Shown here: positions 51,566-58,317 of the stretch, in pieces | Layout: each line of letters begins with the position of its first letter | Numbering within the stretch: position 1 is the stretch's first letter | Source: Pseudomonadota bacterium | GTDB lineage: Bacteria; CALINM01 | Assembly (NCBI GenBank): GCA_026418415.1 | Contig: JAOABK010000011.1 | Coordinates: forward strand, 1 to 58,317 | DNA length: 58,317 bases | Direction of reading: 5' to 3' | The notes under the pieces: model-generated | What the model was told of the DNA's origin: nothing | Database searches by the model: none | The model's input: the letters and a program-made list of their open reading frames with translations, nothing else | Position numbers and translations under genes: made by a program

Positions 51566-51742
51566 ATGGGCATCAGTCGATGGGGCAGGTCTTCTGGCTT
51601 GTGCTTCATCCTACTTGCTCCGCCTTCCCATTCCTTTTTATTCGGAACAGTGGCTAATTTAATGGAGCGTTCGTCTGCACTCACAGCGGCGGGGCCGCTC
51701 CCGATTTGCTCTAAAGCTTCACGGGATTCCCTAACTCCCCAT
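51566..51742 (-). promoter_or_regulatory. Cobalamin (AdoCbl-type) riboswitch
   Basis: Contains on the minus strand the B12 box AGCCAGAAGACCTGCC (51584-51599), the conserved GCCACTG (51648-51654), GGGAGCGGCCCCGCCGCTGTGA-like paired region near 51680-51705 and the AGGGAATC...GTGAA motif near the 5' end. A short closing stem ATGGG/CCCAT joins the ends. It precedes the cobalamin biosynthesis and cobalt transport operon, with an intrinsic terminator behind it. Confidence 0.95.
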
Positions 51743-51759
51743 GACAAACACTTTGAGAT

Positions 51760-51789
51760 AGGTTACAACATAAAATTGTGCTTTGTCAA
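51760..51789 (-). promoter_or_regulatory. Promoter of the cobalamin operon
   Basis: Minus strand: perfect TTGACA (51784-51789), 18 bases, TAACCT (51760-51765) with an upstream TG. Transcription would start a few bases before the aptamer. Confidence 0.6.
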
Positions 51790-51811: not shown

Positions 51812-52285
51812 TCAAATATTTACTGACAGAATTTTGTTTGAGAGTTTCATAACCTCATCTAAATATATATCCATTCTTGATTTTAGAGTCTCGCTTATTT
51901 CACCAATTCCAGTAAAATCCTCAGGTACTATTCCAACTACATAACATTTAGCCTTTGAACCTAAAAATTTAGCTTTAATATAAGCATCTTCAATACCTAT
52001 ATCATGAAAAGAGACTGGTATAATTCTTTTAAAGACAGCCTCATCAAATGGTATCGTATATATAGTTCCTGGCAAATCATCTAATCTCAGGATATCAAGA
52101 AAAATTATATTTTCATACTCGAAAAAAAGGGGGATGAGGGAAAGGCCAGATGTGCCCCCCTCAATAAGTGTGCCTAAATCGAACTTTATTTCTTCTAATT
52201 TTTTAAGAGCAAATATTCCAAAACCATCATCTTTACAGAGTTCATTACCGATTCCTACTATAGCAAGCTTATTTCGCTTCTTCAT
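51812..52285 (-). CDS. hyaD: NiFe hydrogenase maturation protease
   Basis: 157 residues of the HyaD/HybD peptidase family: IVGIGNELCKDDGFG (nickel-ligating Glu), DILRLDDLPG (Asp) and SFHDIGIEDA (His). It cuts the C-terminal extension of the large subunit after nickel insertion. It overlaps the cytochrome b gene by 17 bases and is the last gene of the hydrogenase operon. Confidence 0.93.
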   Translation of the reverse strand: MKKRNKLAIVGIGNELCKDDGFGIFALKKLEEIKFDLGTLIEGGTSGLSLIPLFFEYENIIFLDILRLDDLPGTIYTIPFDEAVFKRIIPVSFHDIGIEDAYIKAKFLGSKAKCYVVGIVPEDFTGIGEISETLKSRMDIYLDEVMKLSNKILSVNI

Positions 52286-52865
52286 ATCCTGTAATCATTC
52301 CAATGTAATAGTCAAATATAGTAGCACCAGTTGTTCCAAGATAAAGATGAGCCATAAGAGATATTGAATAAAATATAGTTAAAATAAAATGCCAGAACCT
52401 CACATACCCAAGACCTGAAAACCAATCCACAACAACTGAAAACATCTCAGGCTCATATAAAGCAAAACCCGTTAAAAACTGAGGGACAAACACAATTGGC
52501 CAGATAGAATAGGCTAATTTCTGACCAGGGTTATATTTACCAAACTTTGGTTTTGGTGCATGTGTAAAAATACCATAGAGATAGTACTTCATTAGTGTGA
52601 GGAAACCTGGAATATCTCCAATTCTAAAAATAATATCTCTGTATTTCTTTGAAACAAAGAAATAGTAATAACCTCTTGCTGCGTAGCACCAAATAATTAG
52701 CCAGGCAAATATAAAATGCATATACCTTGCCATTGAGATACTTCCAAACATTGGAATCCATTCTGGCCAATGAATATGTAGACCAGTAAGTATAAGCATT
52801 ATCATGCAAAAGGCATGTAGCCAGTGTGTTAATCTTGGGAAAAGAGGATGTCTATATTCTTTCAT
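52269..52865 (-). CDS. hyaC: Ni/Fe-hydrogenase cytochrome b subunit
   Basis: 198 residues, four membrane helices with haem-ligating histidines (RLTHWLHAFCMIMLILTGLHIHWPEW, YMHFIFAWLIIW, RFWHFILTIFYSISLMAHLYLG). It anchors the hydrogenase to the inner membrane and passes electrons to the quinone pool. Ten bases downstream of hyaB. Confidence 0.92.
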   Translation of the reverse strand: MKEYRHPLFPRLTHWLHAFCMIMLILTGLHIHWPEWIPMFGSISMARYMHFIFAWLIIWCYAARGYYYFFVSKKYRDIIFRIGDIPGFLTLMKYYLYGIFTHAPKPKFGKYNPGQKLAYSIWPIVFVPQFLTGFALYEPEMFSVVVDWFSGLGYVRFWHFILTIFYSISLMAHLYLGTTGATIFDYYIGMITGYEEAK

Positions 52866-52874
52866 ATTTCCTCC

Positions 52875-54434
52875 CTATGCAACTCTAAAAGTTTTAACTT
52901 CATTACTCTCAGGTGTTATAACATGTATTGCACAGGCAAGACAGGGATCAAAGGATCTAACAACCCTAACTGCTTCTATTGGGTTTTCTGGATCTGCTAT
53001 TGGTGTACCAATCAATGCCTCTTCAATTACTCCTCTAACACCCTTATCGTCCCTTGGTCCACAATTCCATGTGGATGGAACTACACACTGATACCTTTCA
53101 ATTTTATGGTCTTTAATCTTAATCCAGTGACCCAATGCACCCCTTTGTGCCTCTGTAAGACCAAATCCCTCACTTTCCTTTGGTACCTCATAATGATTAT
53201 TAACAGGTTGACCAGGTTTAAGTTCTAACAACCATTTTTCTGTCTGTTCAGCTACGATTTTTAACTCTAAAGCTCTACAGGCATGTCTTCCAAGAACAGA
53301 AAATAGTGCTGAAACATCGGCATTCAAAGATTTTAATGTATTTGTAACAAGGTTTGACACTTCTGGTCTCTTTCCTGAAAGATGGGTTATTGCCATTCTC
53401 GCTAATGGTCCTACCTCCATAGGTTTTGTATTATACCTTGCCGCTTTAACCCATGTATAAGCGTTCGGTTTTTTTGGATCAGGAGTTGTCTCTCCTTCAA
53501 AGGGATGTAATCCTGTGGGTGAAGAATACTTAGCATAAAATACTTCTTCTTTTATATTCTTCTGGTCAAGGGTTTCTAATTTGCCTTCAATAAATGCACC
53601 TGGGATATGATAAGTTTCAGTGCCTTCATTATTTAATTCAAATATACCATAGGCAAGCAAGTTTTTATAACCAGCGCCTATCTTAAACCATTGGGGGTAT
53701 GCTTTTGCAACCGCAATAACATCGGGGATATAACAGGCATCAATAAACTCTTTTATTTTTCTTAGTCTATATAAATAAGATGCTATCCTCTCTGCTGTTA
53801 CAGTTTCTGCTACTCCACCTGGGACAATACCAGTTACATGGGGCATTTTTCCACCCCAGATTGCTATCATTTCCTGAGCAGTTCTTGCAATTTCAAAGGC
53901 CTTCACATAATGATTGATGGCAGTTAGATTTAGTTCTTTGTCTTTTATATAATCGCCTTTATATCTTGGTAAAAATGGTGCACCAGCAGTTTTACTACCC
54001 GTACTAACCTCTTTTTTTACCCATTCTTTAATATTATTCATTGTGGGATCATTGCCCTTATATTCAAGTATTGCGGTAATGTCAACAAAATCAAGAGCAA
54101 CTAGATGATAAAAGTGAAGTATATGAGAATGAAGAAGATTTCCTGCAGCCATTAAATTTCTTATAATTCTCCCATTATCAGGTGGTGTCACTTTAAATGC
54201 AGAATCTAAAGCCTTAACAGAAGCCATTGCATGAGCAACAGGACAAACACCACAAATTCTTTGAGTTACATTTACCGCATCCTGAGGATCTCTACCCTTC
54301 AGTATAATTTCCCATCCTCTAAACATATCACCTCTTGCCCAGGCATCTTTAATTCTTCCACCTTCTACTTCTATTTCTATAGAATAATGTCCTTCGATTC
54401 GTGTAATTGGATCTATAACAACCTTCTTAGCCAT
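52875..54434 (-). CDS. hyaB: [NiFe] hydrogenase large subunit, membrane-bound uptake type
   Basis: 519 residues. The Ni-Fe ligands are both Cys pairs: RICGVC (Cys61, Cys64) and DPCLACAIH (Cys498, Cys501). Processing would occur after His504, releasing the 15-residue tail VITPESNEVKTFRVA. No selenocysteine variant. The Glu and Arg residues around the active site (RIEGH near the start) are normal. It pairs with the small subunit encoded three bases upstream and the HyaD protease downstream. Confidence 0.95.
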   Translation of the reverse strand: MAKKVVIDPITRIEGHYSIEIEVEGGRIKDAWARGDMFRGWEIILKGRDPQDAVNVTQRICGVCPVAHAMASVKALDSAFKVTPPDNGRIIRNLMAAGNLLHSHILHFYHLVALDFVDITAILEYKGNDPTMNNIKEWVKKEVSTGSKTAGAPFLPRYKGDYIKDKELNLTAINHYVKAFEIARTAQEMIAIWGGKMPHVTGIVPGGVAETVTAERIASYLYRLRKIKEFIDACYIPDVIAVAKAYPQWFKIGAGYKNLLAYGIFELNNEGTETYHIPGAFIEGKLETLDQKNIKEEVFYAKYSSPTGLHPFEGETTPDPKKPNAYTWVKAARYNTKPMEVGPLARMAITHLSGKRPEVSNLVTNTLKSLNADVSALFSVLGRHACRALELKIVAEQTEKWLLELKPGQPVNNHYEVPKESEGFGLTEAQRGALGHWIKIKDHKIERYQCVVPSTWNCGPRDDKGVRGVIEEALIGTPIADPENPIEAVRVVRSFDPCLACAIHVITPESNEVKTFRVA

Positions 54435-54437
54435 TAT

Positions 54438-55502
54438 TTATTCCCCCTTTGATTCTTTATTTTCTTCTTTTTTCTTCTTTGATGATAAAGCTCTACCCAC
54501 TGCGTGAGCTATTATTCCACCCACAGTAGCTGCTCCAACAACTGTACCAAACTTATCTGCTTTCACCTTTAATCCAGGAATCCCTGGTACTTTTGCTTCT
54601 GGTAGTCTCATATAAATTCCATTACCTGTTGAACCAATGAAACTCTCTGCTGCACATCCAATACAAGGAGAACCTCCCCTAATGGGCCAGTTAAGACCAG
54701 AGTTCCATTGATAATTCGGGCAATCATTATATGTAATAGGACCTTTACATCCTAAAAGATACATACATTTTTTTTCTGCAAATGTCTTTGCAAAATCACC
54801 CTTCTCAAAAAATGGTCTCATCTCACAGTTATCATGAATAAGCCTTGCAAAGAAAACCATAGGCCTTCTTTTACTATCAAGTTCTGGCATACCAAAGAGT
54901 TTCAAATGAGCCAACAAACCTACTAAATGGTGAGGTCTTGCTGGACAGCCTGGAAGGTTTACAACTTTTTTGGGATCTATTATTGCTGTAACTGGTTTAG
55001 CACCTGTTGGATTAGGTTCTGCTGCTGGAATTCCACCCCATGTTGCGCAGGTGCCAAGGGCAACAACGTACATTGCTTTCTCACCCAAGTCCTTAACCCA
55101 CTTAAGAAATGTAATTGGCTTCCCTGTATCATCTTCTCCAATGGTGCAATAAATACCATCATCTTTAACAGGAACTGCCCCTTCAACCACAAGAATAAAT
55201 TTTTCATTACTTTTTAATGCTTCATGAAGAACATCAATACATTGATGACCTGATGCAGCCATTACTGTTTGATGAAACTTAAGAGAGATAATATCAGTTA
55301 CAATATCAACTACAGTGGGCTGAACTGTATTAAGAATTGATTCCGAACATCCTGCATCAGTTTGCCCTTGTATCCAAATTACTGGAATATTTTTGTTCCC
55401 CTTTTCTAATGCTTCAGCAACTTTTGTAAGAAAAGGAGACGTAAGCATCGCAGCACCTAACCCACCTGCTGCTTTCAGAAAATCCCTTCTCGTTAATCTC
55501 AT
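54438..55502 (-). CDS. hyaA: [NiFe] hydrogenase small subunit with Tat signal and Asp in the proximal-cluster motif
   Basis: 354 residues. Tat signal RRDFLKAAGG at residues 5-14. Proximal-cluster motif GQTDAGCSES has Asp49 where the usual motif CTGC has its first Cys; Cys52 is kept. Later ligands are present: GTCATWGG, GCPARPHHL, DNCEMRP, CMYLLGCKGP, NDCPNYQWN and PCIGC (a 3Fe-4S-type medial site). A short hydrophobic C-terminus (VVGAATVGGIIAHAVG) could anchor the protein. Exported folded with HyaB. A sigma-54 promoter lies upstream. Confidence 0.94.
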   Translation of the reverse strand: MRLTRRDFLKAAGGLGAAMLTSPFLTKVAEALEKGNKNIPVIWIQGQTDAGCSESILNTVQPTVVDIVTDIISLKFHQTVMAASGHQCIDVLHEALKSNEKFILVVEGAVPVKDDGIYCTIGEDDTGKPITFLKWVKDLGEKAMYVVALGTCATWGGIPAAEPNPTGAKPVTAIIDPKKVVNLPGCPARPHHLVGLLAHLKLFGMPELDSKRRPMVFFARLIHDNCEMRPFFEKGDFAKTFAEKKCMYLLGCKGPITYNDCPNYQWNSGLNWPIRGGSPCIGCAAESFIGSTGNGIYMRLPEAKVPGIPGLKVKADKFGTVVGAATVGGIIAHAVGRALSSKKKKEENKESKGE

Positions 55503-55543
55503 GTGGTCATACCTCCCTTTGATAAACTTTAGACGTTTGGCAT

Positions 55544-55559
55544 ATCAAAGGTTGTGCCA
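55544..55559 (-). promoter_or_regulatory. Sigma-54 (-24/-12) promoter of the hydrogenase operon
   Basis: Minus strand TGGCACAACCTTTGAT: the -24 TGGCAC is perfect and the conserved GG and -12 G are ten bases apart as required. The only mismatch to TTGCW is A for C. A GGGAGG ribosome site and the hyaA ATG follow about 40 bases further. Confidence 0.75.
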
Positions 55560-55610
55560 CACGAAAAATCAACAATTACAATAACTTACTGATTTAAGGC
55601 TTAAACTTAA

Positions 55611-55648
55611 TGTAATATTACAATGACAGTGTAAAGATTTGATTACAC
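55611..55648. promoter_or_regulatory. Candidate enhancer (UAS) for the sigma-54 activator
   Basis: Two inverted repeats of the same half-site: the perfect 12-base palindrome tgtaatattaca (55611-55622), and gtgtaa-8-ttacac (55629-55648). A further attaca half-site is at 55575. They lie about 50-90 bases upstream of the -24 element, typical for enhancer-binding proteins. Confidence 0.55.
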
Positions 55649-55659
55649 AAAATTAAAAA

Positions 55660-57927
55660 TTAGTGCCTGAATATGTCTTCTCTTTTTATATTATGTTTTT
55701 TCATTAAATTATGGAAGGTTGGCCTCGGTATGCCTGCAAGCTCTGCAGCCTTTTTTACATTTCCCATAGACTGTTTTAGAAATCTTTTTATCAAATTTCT
55801 TTCAAATTGCTGAAGGTGTTCTTCTCTTAAATCCCATAAATTTTTATTAACCGGTAAGCTTTCCAGCTCAGGAGAAGTATTCTGTATATATATAGGAAAA
55901 TCCTTTAGCTTTAACTCCTCTCCCTGTGCAAGAATTACAGCTCTTTCCACTACATTTGCTAATTCTCTTATGTTGCCTGGCCAATGATAGGCTTTGAGAT
56001 ACCTAATTACTTCCTTCTCTACACTTTTTATTTTCTTTCCTATCTTTTTAGATGCACTATCTATAAGATGATGCAAAAAGTATGGAATATCGTCTTTTCT
56101 TTCTCTTAGGGGTGGCAATGTAATTGTAAAAACATTGAGTCTGTAATATAAATCTTCTCTAAATTTTCCTTCTTTTATTAACTCTTCTAAATTTCTATTT
56201 GTTGCTGCTATTACTCGAACATCAACCTTTTTCACTTCAGTACTTCCAATTGCTCTTATTTCACCATTTTGTAAAACTCTAAGAAGCTTTGTCTGCAAAT
56301 TTATAGGCATATCCCCTATTTCATCGAGAAATATAGTACCATTATTTGCCGCTTCAAATAGCCCCTTCTTATTTTCAGTTGCGCCAGTAAAAGAGCCTTT
56401 TACATGACCAAAAAGTTCGCTTTCTAATAGGTTCTCATTTAAAGTAGTACAATTTACTGTAATCATTGGTTTGTTTTTTCTGTTAGACTTTTGGTGAATA
56501 AGTATCGCTAACATCTCTTTGCCTGTTCCACTCTCTCCCCTTAGTAAAACAGTTGTGCTTGTTGGTGCAACCTTTTCAATCTGATCCCAAATCTCTCTCA
56601 TTTTATGTGTTTTTCCTAATATAAATCCAAAATCCTTATCCTTATACAATTCATTTTGTATAACCTGATAATCCTGTAACAATGTGAGATTGTTTATTGA
56701 CATTTTATTTAGAAGGTAGGGCAAACACATCTCTATTTCGGCGAGACCTATAACAACAGCTTTTGCCTTCTCATAACAGTTTTCATATCCACAGGCACCA
56801 CAATTTAAATTTTCTCCACCATTGTATACCTTCATCTCGTCAAGTACCCTTTTTATATCCTCTTCCTTTGGTTCTATGAAAATTAGTCTATCTTTTTTTG
56901 AAAACTCCCTTAAAAGACCTTTGTCTGGAAATGGATACTCTTCTCCAGCCGACTGGAAATAATAGTTTTTAACATAATTAACTACCCTTTCAACCCTTTC
57001 ATGGAGGCTACCTTTATTTTGCATTACCGGTCCATCAATACAGCCTTTACAAAATAGCATATCAACAAACTTGGGTTTTATTCTTCCGCTCTTTAGAGCC
57101 TCAAAAAAACTTAAAACTTCATCCTTACCATCCACAACAATTATATCTGTCTCTAAAATGTCAGTACCAATAGAAGCTGTTTTTAAAAGTCCTCCAGATA
57201 AAGCAAATGCTCTACCTATTCTTGGAAAATATCCATCAAAATCGGAAAAGTTTTTTCTTTTTGGATCTATATTAAACTCACTAAAAAAGCAATCTAACTC
57301 TTTAAAAGTCCAAACATTATCAATACACACATTTTCAAAATTATCATGTATCTCAGATTTTTTTGCTACACAGGGCCCAATGAAAGTAATGTGTGCATCC
57401 TTAAAACGCTCTTTCAAAAACCGCCCCATTGCAATCATCGGCGAAACAATATTAACTAAATTTGGAATAAACTCTGGATAATACTTACATACAAGATTAA
57501 CAATTGCGGGACATGGAGAAGATATAAAAGTATTTTCATTTTTTTCACTAATCGCCTTGTTTAGAAAACCTCTATAACTCTCCGCAACCAGCTCTGCACC
57601 ATAAGCGGTTTCATAAACATAATCAAAACCTAACTTTCTTAATGCTGCAACAAGTTGGAGGGGATGGGAGTCATTATAATATGACACAAAGGAAGGTGCT
57701 AAAAGAGCAATCTTTGTTTTACCGCTCTGAAGCAACTCGTGTATGGACATACCCATTTCCACTGCCTTTGCATCCTGAGAACATAACTTTATACAATTAC
57801 CACAGGATATACAATTTTCTTTCAATACAAATGCCTGATCATTTTGAACTTTGATAGCTTTAACTGGACAACCCCTTATGCAGGAATAACATTTTTTACA
57901 TAATCCTTCCTTTGTTTGAATAATCAT
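55660..57927 (-). CDS. [FeFe]-hydrogenase-like sensor fused to a sigma-54 activator
   Basis: 755 residues. Order: two 4Fe-4S ferredoxin motifs (Cys10-20, 39-49); an [FeFe]-hydrogenase-like domain (about 70-330) with SSPCPA (Cys139), GPCVAKKSE (Cys186) and FCKGC (Cys293, Cys296), which match H-cluster ligands; an ARC 4Fe-4S motif (Cys376, 379, 384, 401); an AAA+ domain with Walker A GESGTGK (464-470), GSFTGA (511-516, variant of GAFTGA) and Walker B IFLDEIGD; and a Fis-type helix-turn-helix at the C-terminus. The usual TSCCP is SSPCP, so the proton-transfer Cys is Pro. It probably senses hydrogen or redox state and activates the adjacent hydrogenase operon. It could alternatively be a redox regulator without an H-cluster. 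Confidence 0.85.
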   Translation of the reverse strand: MIIQTKEGLCKKCYSCIRGCPVKAIKVQNDQAFVLKENCISCGNCIKLCSQDAKAVEMGMSIHELLQSGKTKIALLAPSFVSYYNDSHPLQLVAALRKLGFDYVYETAYGAELVAESYRGFLNKAISEKNENTFISSPCPAIVNLVCKYYPEFIPNLVNIVSPMIAMGRFLKERFKDAHITFIGPCVAKKSEIHDNFENVCIDNVWTFKELDCFFSEFNIDPKRKNFSDFDGYFPRIGRAFALSGGLLKTASIGTDILETDIIVVDGKDEVLSFFEALKSGRIKPKFVDMLFCKGCIDGPVMQNKGSLHERVERVVNYVKNYYFQSAGEEYPFPDKGLLREFSKKDRLIFIEPKEEDIKRVLDEMKVYNGGENLNCGACGYENCYEKAKAVVIGLAEIEMCLPYLLNKMSINNLTLLQDYQVIQNELYKDKDFGFILGKTHKMREIWDQIEKVAPTSTTVLLRGESGTGKEMLAILIHQKSNRKNKPMITVNCTTLNENLLESELFGHVKGSFTGATENKKGLFEAANNGTIFLDEIGDMPINLQTKLLRVLQNGEIRAIGSTEVKKVDVRVIAATNRNLEELIKEGKFREDLYYRLNVFTITLPPLRERKDDIPYFLHHLIDSASKKIGKKIKSVEKEVIRYLKAYHWPGNIRELANVVERAVILAQGEELKLKDFPIYIQNTSPELESLPVNKNLWDLREEHLQQFERNLIKRFLKQSMGNVKKAAELAGIPRPTFHNLMKKHNIKREDIFRH

Positions 57928-57935
57928 AAGATCCC

Positions 57936-58317
57936 CTATCTTAGAAATTCAGTAAACTTATCTAATAGACCATTATATTTTGCTATAAAAACACCATAAT
58001 TGGTTAGAGGTATATTTTTACTGGTAAAATATTCTTGTCTTTTTTTCATATCCCTTTCAGATAACATACATCCACCACAGTGTAATGCAAACCTTACACT
58101 TTCTAATTCTTGAAAATTTTGATGTATTCCTGAGAAGAAAACAAAATTAAGTTTCTTTCCTGTTGTCTTTTCTAATAGTTTTGGAAGAACCTCTCTTCCC
58201 ATATCCCCCTCTAATCTATGGTGAGTACAGGCTTCTATGATCGCAACTTTATCCCCTTCTTTAAGGCTATCAATTAAATAACAGGAATCGAGCAGGGATT
58301 TAAAATTACCTTTATAT
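57936..58317 (-). CDS. hydF: [FeFe]-hydrogenase maturation GTPase HydF, 3' part only
   Basis: The frame is open to the right edge, so the N-terminal GTPase domain lies outside. The visible 127 residues contain EACTHH, followed exactly 46 residues after CTH by HCGGC: the HydF cluster signature CxH-x46-53-HCxxC. NYGVFIA near the end also fits. HydF carries the di-iron precursor of the H-cluster. Its presence beside an [FeFe]-hydrogenase-like regulator implies the cofactor is made in this organism. The gap to the regulator gene is eight bases. Confidence 0.92.
   Translation of the reverse strand, partial: YKGNFKSLLDSCYLIDSLKEGDKVAIIEACTHHRLEGDMGREVLPKLLEKTTGKKLNFVFFSGIHQNFQELESVRFALHCGGCMLSERDMKKRQEYFTSKNIPLTNYGVFIAKYNGLLDKFTEFLR

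Follow-up and report, generated by a model that had tools for sequence, protein, structure and literature searches.

HoxA, the activator at the end of the HoxBC-HoxJ-HoxA chain of Ralstonia/Cupriavidus, belongs to the NtrC/sigma-54 type. In this chain of [NiFe] sensor, kinase and activator, a hydrogenase-derived sensor controls hydrogenase genes through a DNA-binding activator, as set out in the part of the account that was available (PMC6978683). For the sensory groups C and D of the [FeFe] hydrogenases, the accessible portion of PMC8163306 gives loss of Cys299, a change at Met353 and a Cx2Cx4Cx16C cluster as features. The sensory role of group C is called putative, for lack of physiological evidence, in the accessible text of a review (PMC8924675), and the available sections of PMC11406978 state that H-cluster motifs are hardly found in some C1 proteins, whose H-clusters are doubted. 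Closest in domain content are the Clostridiales sigma-54 activators of Nie et al. 2019 (PMC6615313), among whose regulatory domains Fer4, Fe_hyd_lg_C and FeS are listed; in the part of that paper available to us, Table 1 gives 39 regulons with no hydrogenase operon among them, and neither H2 sensing nor maturases enter the account.

The locus described here lies in a stretch of 58,317 nucleotides (the window) and encodes a regulator with the same domains as those activators. Because this domain architecture is listed in Nie et al., without target or function as far as the accessible text goes, it is not new to print. A literature search that left subscription papers mostly outside its reach returned no H2-sensing sigma-54 fusion with a hydrogenase target, and no description of the target, of binding sites or of maturases serving such a regulator alone. 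Our main point, absent from the preliminary description of this DNA, is that the activator gene beside the [NiFe] hydrogenase genes appears to encode a sensory [FeFe]-hydrogenase fusion, and does so together with the maturase genes hydG-hydE-hydF. Unlike the HoxBC-HoxJ-HoxA chain, the sensor is of the [FeFe] type, a single polypeptide takes the place of three, and there is no phosphorylation domain.

A sensory-type [FeFe]-hydrogenase domain in a sigma-54 activator

The regulator and its domains are placed as follows.

55660..57927, minus strand: regulator, 755 aa, comprising 2[4Fe-4S], an [FeFe]-hydrogenase H-domain, FeS, a sigma-54 AAA+ domain and a Fis-type helix-turn-helix (Pfam)
57028..57711, minus strand: H-domain, residues 73-300, with ligand cysteines C139, C186, C293 and C296 (Pfam, alignments)
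56719..56811, minus strand: C-terminal Cx2Cx4Cx16C cluster domain, residues 373-403 (Pfam; motif read)
56122..56622, minus strand: sigma-54 AAA+ domain, residues 436-602, with a GSFTGA loop (Pfam, fold match)
55696..55815, minus strand: Fis-type DNA-binding domain, residues 705-744 (Pfam)

The output half rests on domain matches, with the AAA+ domain (PF00158, 245.3 bits), its lid (PF25601) and the Fis-type helix-turn-helix (PF02954) all scoring over their cut-offs. The GAFTGA-type loop reads GSFTGA here and GAFTGA in a congener (G001), the former being listed as a working variant in the available part of Nie et al. 2019 (PMC6615313). On the sensor side, the Fe_hyd_lg_C match (PF02906) reaches 156.6 bits, and the four ligand cysteines are invariant in both sets of aligned sequences (8/8 and 25/25). 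Like TmHydS of group C (M2f) and TamHydS of group D (M2e), the regulator has two N-terminal [4Fe-4S] motifs (C10/13/16/20 and C39/42/45/49) and all ligand cysteines. As in the sensory groups, Cys299 of the catalytic proton path is lost (Pro138 in the window's protein, Ala in the congener), and the C-terminal cluster, C376-x2-C379-x4-C384-x16-C401, fits Cx2Cx4Cx16C exactly; the Met353 position is occupied by Gly, as in TmHydS. Lys189 and Pro78 are retained; we take K189 to correspond to Lys358 of CpI, and A77-P78-S79 presumably corresponds to the CpI residues near a cyanide ligand.

Two features separate the regulator from group C and D sensors. Its P3 loop is divergent, being CKGC (CxxC) and not CxxxC, and in place of PAS, kinase or phosphatase domains its output is the sigma-54 AAA+/HTH module. 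No PAS domain was matched by Pfam after the C-terminal cluster at E<=1e-3, and because of this absence we call the protein group-C-like and do not file it as group C. A helix spanning residues 398-429 is predicted to lead into the AAA+ domain (model mean pLDDT 83.7, falling to 51-65 near that junction). The sensor modelled alone is poor (mean pLDDT 64.7), and its match to [FeFe] hydrogenases is weak support; better support comes from the sequence match to solved [FeFe] hydrogenases (best E 2.6e-21). As far as sequence can tell, then, the regulator joins a group-C-like sensory [FeFe] hydrogenase, without any intermediary protein, to a sigma-54 AAA+/Fis activator, its H-cluster and its response to H2 being inferred. 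A two-component counterpart exists in a Dehalococcoidales MAG (L085:5995-9289), where a kinase-fused sensor of the same family is followed by an NtrC-type response regulator; the window's regulator is, by contrast, one-component.

Maturases and the case for an H-cluster

Intact sensor motifs do not prove that an H-cluster is present, and the genes around the regulator bear on this question. The cluster in the window comprises, beside the regulator, the following genes.

57936..58316, minus strand: hydF, C-terminal part, cut by the contig end (Pfam; order intact in the congener)
54438..55502, minus strand: hyaA, [NiFe] hydrogenase small subunit with Tat signal
52875..54434, minus strand: hyaB, [NiFe] hydrogenase large subunit
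52269..52865, minus strand: hyaC, cytochrome b subunit
51812..52285, minus strand: hyaD, hydrogenase maturation protease

The window's genome (G000; 2.03 Mb, 161 contigs, 92% complete) has hydG and hydE, with the N-terminal part of hydF, on another contig (C118; L007), and in the congener a single contig bears hydG-hydE-hydF-regulator-hyaABCD in unbroken order. The only other genome of the family among the 60 searched, G002, has no hya gene 3' of the regulator. A PF02906 search found the regulator as the only [FeFe] domain in both G000 and G002, each of which has hydG. The congener has a second [FeFe] hydrogenase, of catalytic type, with a further hydG on the same contig (C182; L188, L211), not found in the other two. 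The H-cluster pathway thus appears to lack any other detected client in two of the three family members (genomes 84-92% complete), with the reservation that, at 92% completeness, a second [FeFe] protein could be missing from the window's assembly. A second HydG-like protein of that genome (contig C70) was not counted as HydG: it was taken as ThiH-like, lying beside what we assume, from their appearance, to be thiamine genes.

An alternative that we regard as unlikely is that the regulator does activate hyaA through the repeats and sigma-54 while its sensor, holding iron-sulfur clusters only, reads redox state or another gas instead of H2. The divergent CKGC loop fits it, and so do five Desulfuromonad/delta sigma-54 fusions (L077, L082, L084, L093, L101), each the sole PF02906 protein of a genome with no HydG over the cut-off, so that the architecture can exist without an H-cluster. 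These five have lost the Lys and the Pro near the diiron site and carry altered motifs such as SSCIAAKFE and LGCSF; they are perhaps H-cluster-free redox regulators, their target being unknown. Kinase-type sensors that keep intact motifs where the genome has no detected HydG point the same way. We tabulated the two residues against HydG in 62 genomes, 12 from the PF02906/HydG survey and 50 of 74 loci. Both were kept in all 38 genomes with HydG and in 18 of the 24 without detected HydG; the Pro was lost in six genomes, five of which had also lost the Lys, and all six lack HydG (Fisher 0.002, uncorrected for kinship). The table is blurred by draft gaps, since the genome of L062 counts as HydG-negative despite its catalytic-type [FeFe] proteins. 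Retention of Lys and Pro cannot be used as a sign of an H-cluster, given that 18 HydG-negative genomes keep both; the association holds in one direction only. What stands against an iron-sulfur-only sensor here is that hydG-hydE-hydF are encoded with the regulator, that the search of G000 and G002 turned up no further [FeFe] protein, and that Lys189 and Pro78 are kept as in all genomes with HydG. The fusion may therefore exist in versions with and without an H-cluster, and by these tests the window's belongs with the former.

Six Ignavibacteria-type genomes (L065, L066, L068, L069, L075, L076) have complete sensor motifs and no HydG over the cut-off, which reflects either draft gaps or a real lack of the H-cluster.

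The region between the regulator gene and hyaA

The two genes are both on the minus strand, and 157 bp separate the regulator stop (55660) from the hyaA start (55502). Three elements are assigned to this gap.

55544..55559, minus strand: sigma-54-type promoter of hyaA, TGGCAC-N5-TTGAT (sequence; 14/16 identical in the congener)
55611..55628, no strand: inverted repeat unit 2, TGTAA-N8-TTACA with one mismatch, TGTCATTGTAATATTACA (exact in the congener)
55629..55648, no strand: inverted repeat unit 1, GTGTAA-N8-TTACAC, GTGTAATCAAATCTTTACAC, exact, one of three copies in the genome; proposed regulator-binding site, without binding data

The promoter boxes, TGGCAC at 55559-55554 and TTGAT at 55548-55544 on the minus strand, are separated by five bases and keep the GG-N10-G spacing, as the preliminary description had read from the same 157-base gap. 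The base 3' of the -12 G is A where the consensus has C, and this GG-N10-GA is kept in the congener; transcription is predicted, and only predicted, to start near 55532-55534. By itself the match is weak evidence. It is the sole exact TGGCACN5TTGMW in the window, and an exact match on a given strand arose in 1/4000 simulations of a random 157-bp stretch. A loose scan of the whole window, set aside as uninformative, yielded two matches with <=1 mismatch against 2.93 expected from shuffles, which is no enrichment. RpoN is encoded in the genome.

The two repeat units follow one another in tandem at a distance of 19 bp and occupy the stretch 52-89 bp upstream of the -24 box. The core of unit 1 (55630-55647) is exact in the window and has one mismatch in the congener, where its arms are identical at 11/12 positions and its spacer at 2/8. 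Over the whole gap, identity with the congener is 14/16 in the promoter, 20/22 in the repeat arms, 5/16 in the spacers and 54/102 in the rest; this selective conservation of arms and promoter is the decisive evidence that both are real. The conserved unit, judged by this comparison, is TGTAA-N8-TTACA, present twice. Both TGTAAT/ATTACA inverted repeats of the preliminary description are present at this distance, and the second, the perfect 12-bp palindrome TGTAATATTACA (55611-55622), overlaps unit 2; it is not conserved in the congener, and we rejected it as the binding unit. Counts within the window with <=1 mismatch were 2 found against 0.36 expected for TGTAATATTACA, and 9 against 4.3 for TGTAA-N8-TTACA, with 3/100 shuffles as high. 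Of the relatives, the congener has the same repeats in its hyaA gap, and the CEB3-type loci treated below have a different repeat there.

The repeat in the rest of the genome and at hydG

Only three exact copies of GTGTAA-N8-TTACAC occur in the window's genome: at hyaA, inside hydF and directly before hydG (contig C118). The copy inside hydF is the following.

58080..58099, no strand: GTGTAA-N8-TTACAC, exact, within hydF; a tentative site upstream of the regulator gene (identical in the congener)

We call it tentative because identity with the congener is also seen in 9/362 twenty-base windows across the same part of hydF. The exact core, TGTAA-N8-TTACA, is found seven times, four of them within 9.5 kb of the cluster (binomial 1.7e-8); in the congener 4/12 exact sites, and in G002 2/4, fall inside the cluster. 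A core site within hyaA (54732-54749) was taken as chance, since it is missing from the exact sites of the congener. A wider regulon in the window's genome found no support, the three remaining exact core sites all being inside unrelated coding frames. No exact core repeat was found on the contig (C161) that bears a second [NiFe] hydrogenase cluster (L172:3638-7627), and that hydrogenase is therefore apparently outside the circuit.

A sigma-54-type promoter, TGGCAT-N5-TTGCT with GG-N10-GC, stands upstream of hydG in each of the three family members. Close to the hydG start each of them also has two repeat units, of which one precedes the ATG and the other falls within the coding sequence; a mismatch is present in one of the two in the window's genome. 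These units are positioned downstream of the hydG promoter, where enhancers do not usually lie and where repression is conceivable as well, so that feedback here could be positive (downstream enhancer) or negative (roadblock).

The hydG leader also contains, just 3' of the sigma-54-type promoter, a C-rich stretch of 64 bases (L007:3419-3482 in the window's genome, L024:5195-5258 in the congener) that is 100% identical between the two genomes, unique in each and folds into a G/C hairpin. An Rfam search of the leader matched no family; the stretch is possibly an attenuator.

The same layout in Peptococcaceae-type loci

The best 80 of at least 410 related loci of named genomes were examined for the wider distribution of such sensors, and contained 98 sensor-like ORFs: 52 kinase fusions, 9 sigma-54 fusions and 37 others. 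In Peptococcaceae bacterium CEB3, a sigma-54 fusion lies between hydF-hydG and hyaABCD. Around CEB3, 12 of 80 genomes (CEB3 included) have the fusion at E<=1e-150, and two of these loci, cut by contig ends, are outside the counts for loci with sequence on both sides. In all ten of the latter, the fusion is followed by hyaA, hyaB and hyaC (hyaD matched in seven), and hydF-hydG were seen directly upstream of the fusion in four loci. In each of the ten gaps before hyaA, the repeat TGTCTA-N5-TAGACA occurs once or more with <=1 mismatch, together with a sigma-54-type promoter at <=2 mismatches; seven of the promoters match TGGCAY-N5-TTGCW strictly. In 10 of the 12 loci, a further copy of the repeat (<=2 mismatches) precedes the first gene, which is the regulator gene or hydF, by no more than ~100 bp, and no copy with <=1 mismatch was found inside the matched genes. 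The fusion-plus-hya layout thus recurs in distantly related bacteria. Whether the sigma-54 fusion arose once is not decided, a quick tree requiring two changes.

The recognition helix and the repeat both differ between the window's lineage and the CEB3-type lineage. The layout has been kept through a change of both the motif and the DNA-binding domain, which favours the regulator as the protein that itself binds the repeats, although binding data are lacking. For the same want of data, it could be supposed that the repeats are occupied by some other transcription factor, such as one responding to redox state or nutrients, and that the fused activator acts at another place or by way of different sites. 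Palindromes this long would fit many families of factors, and the position of the hydG repeats downstream of their promoter would not be out of place for such a factor. We nevertheless find this supposition quite improbable: the motif is almost confined to this cluster, and the Firmicute regulator gene is again flanked by repeats, of another sequence and matched with another recognition helix.

The copy beside hydG folds into a ten-pair hairpin just before the hydG start, and this palindrome might act as an RNA hairpin in the leader, controlling translation or termination, and not as a DNA site. This we judge very unlikely, as the hyaA copy lies upstream of its promoter and would not be transcribed from it, and G001 and G002 each have another copy within hydG itself. 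That the promoter and the repeats merely reflect chance in AT-rich DNA, an idea to which the lack of enrichment of the one-mismatch promoter pattern in the window lends something, is scarcely credible given the selectively conserved arms and promoter, the confinement of the motif to the cluster and the same design in ten other loci.

A proposed one-component circuit

Taken as sites for the regulator, the repeats lead to a model that we consider likely as a whole: a one-component, H2-responsive switch that governs the uptake [NiFe] hydrogenase as well as the machinery that makes its own cofactor, in which the H2 signal, its sign and the DNA binding are inferred. HydGEF would load an H-cluster into the sensor of the regulator, where H2, or the H-cluster redox state set by H2, would be the signal. 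This would be relayed through the C-terminal cluster and the helix to the AAA+ ring, and the regulator bound at the tandem repeats would loop to RNA polymerase-sigma-54 at 55544-55559 and turn on hyaABCD, the uptake hydrogenase. Through the sites at hydG, the regulator may also control its own cofactor factory and itself, as feedback on a hydGEF-regulator operon. Activation by H2 is most likely, repression less so, and this has not been shown.

The preliminary description had proposed a sigma-54 promoter with enhancer-like repeats beside the activator gene, and conservation in the congener, recurrence of the motif at hydG, the presence of RpoN and the layout of the ten loci bear this out. Its suggestion of a local hydrogen-response circuit gains in likelihood because the sensor of the activator is an [FeFe]-hydrogenase domain encoded with H-cluster maturases, the response to H2 itself remaining an inference. 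More tentatively, and with slightly more doubt than confidence, we suggest that the H-cluster is made here solely as a signalling ligand: a complete HydGEF set would serve one sensor, fused to its own sigma-54 activator and acting on the maturase operon and the uptake hydrogenase, to give a closed, autoregulated H2 switch, and the Desulfuromonad/delta branch would have lost the H-cluster to become a plain redox regulator.

If the model holds, one protein would replace hydrogenase, kinase and response regulator in an H2 signalling chain, and the hyaA region would be a candidate H2-inducible promoter system. With the sensor and its output domain, the likely binding sites, the promoter and the cofactor genes all found together, the question whether an H-cluster senses H2 can be put directly to an in vitro test; only a single protein has to be purified and a single promoter assayed, which makes a simple test system for "sensory hydrogenases."

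Two further features of the window were recorded. A cobalamin riboswitch (RF00174, 90.7 bits) lies 3' of the hydrogenase protease gene at 51567-51785 on the minus strand and is also present in the congener; the genes 3' of it we take, from their appearance, to be cobalamin and cobalt-transport genes. Five clustered tRNA genes lie on the plus strand at 1093-1845.
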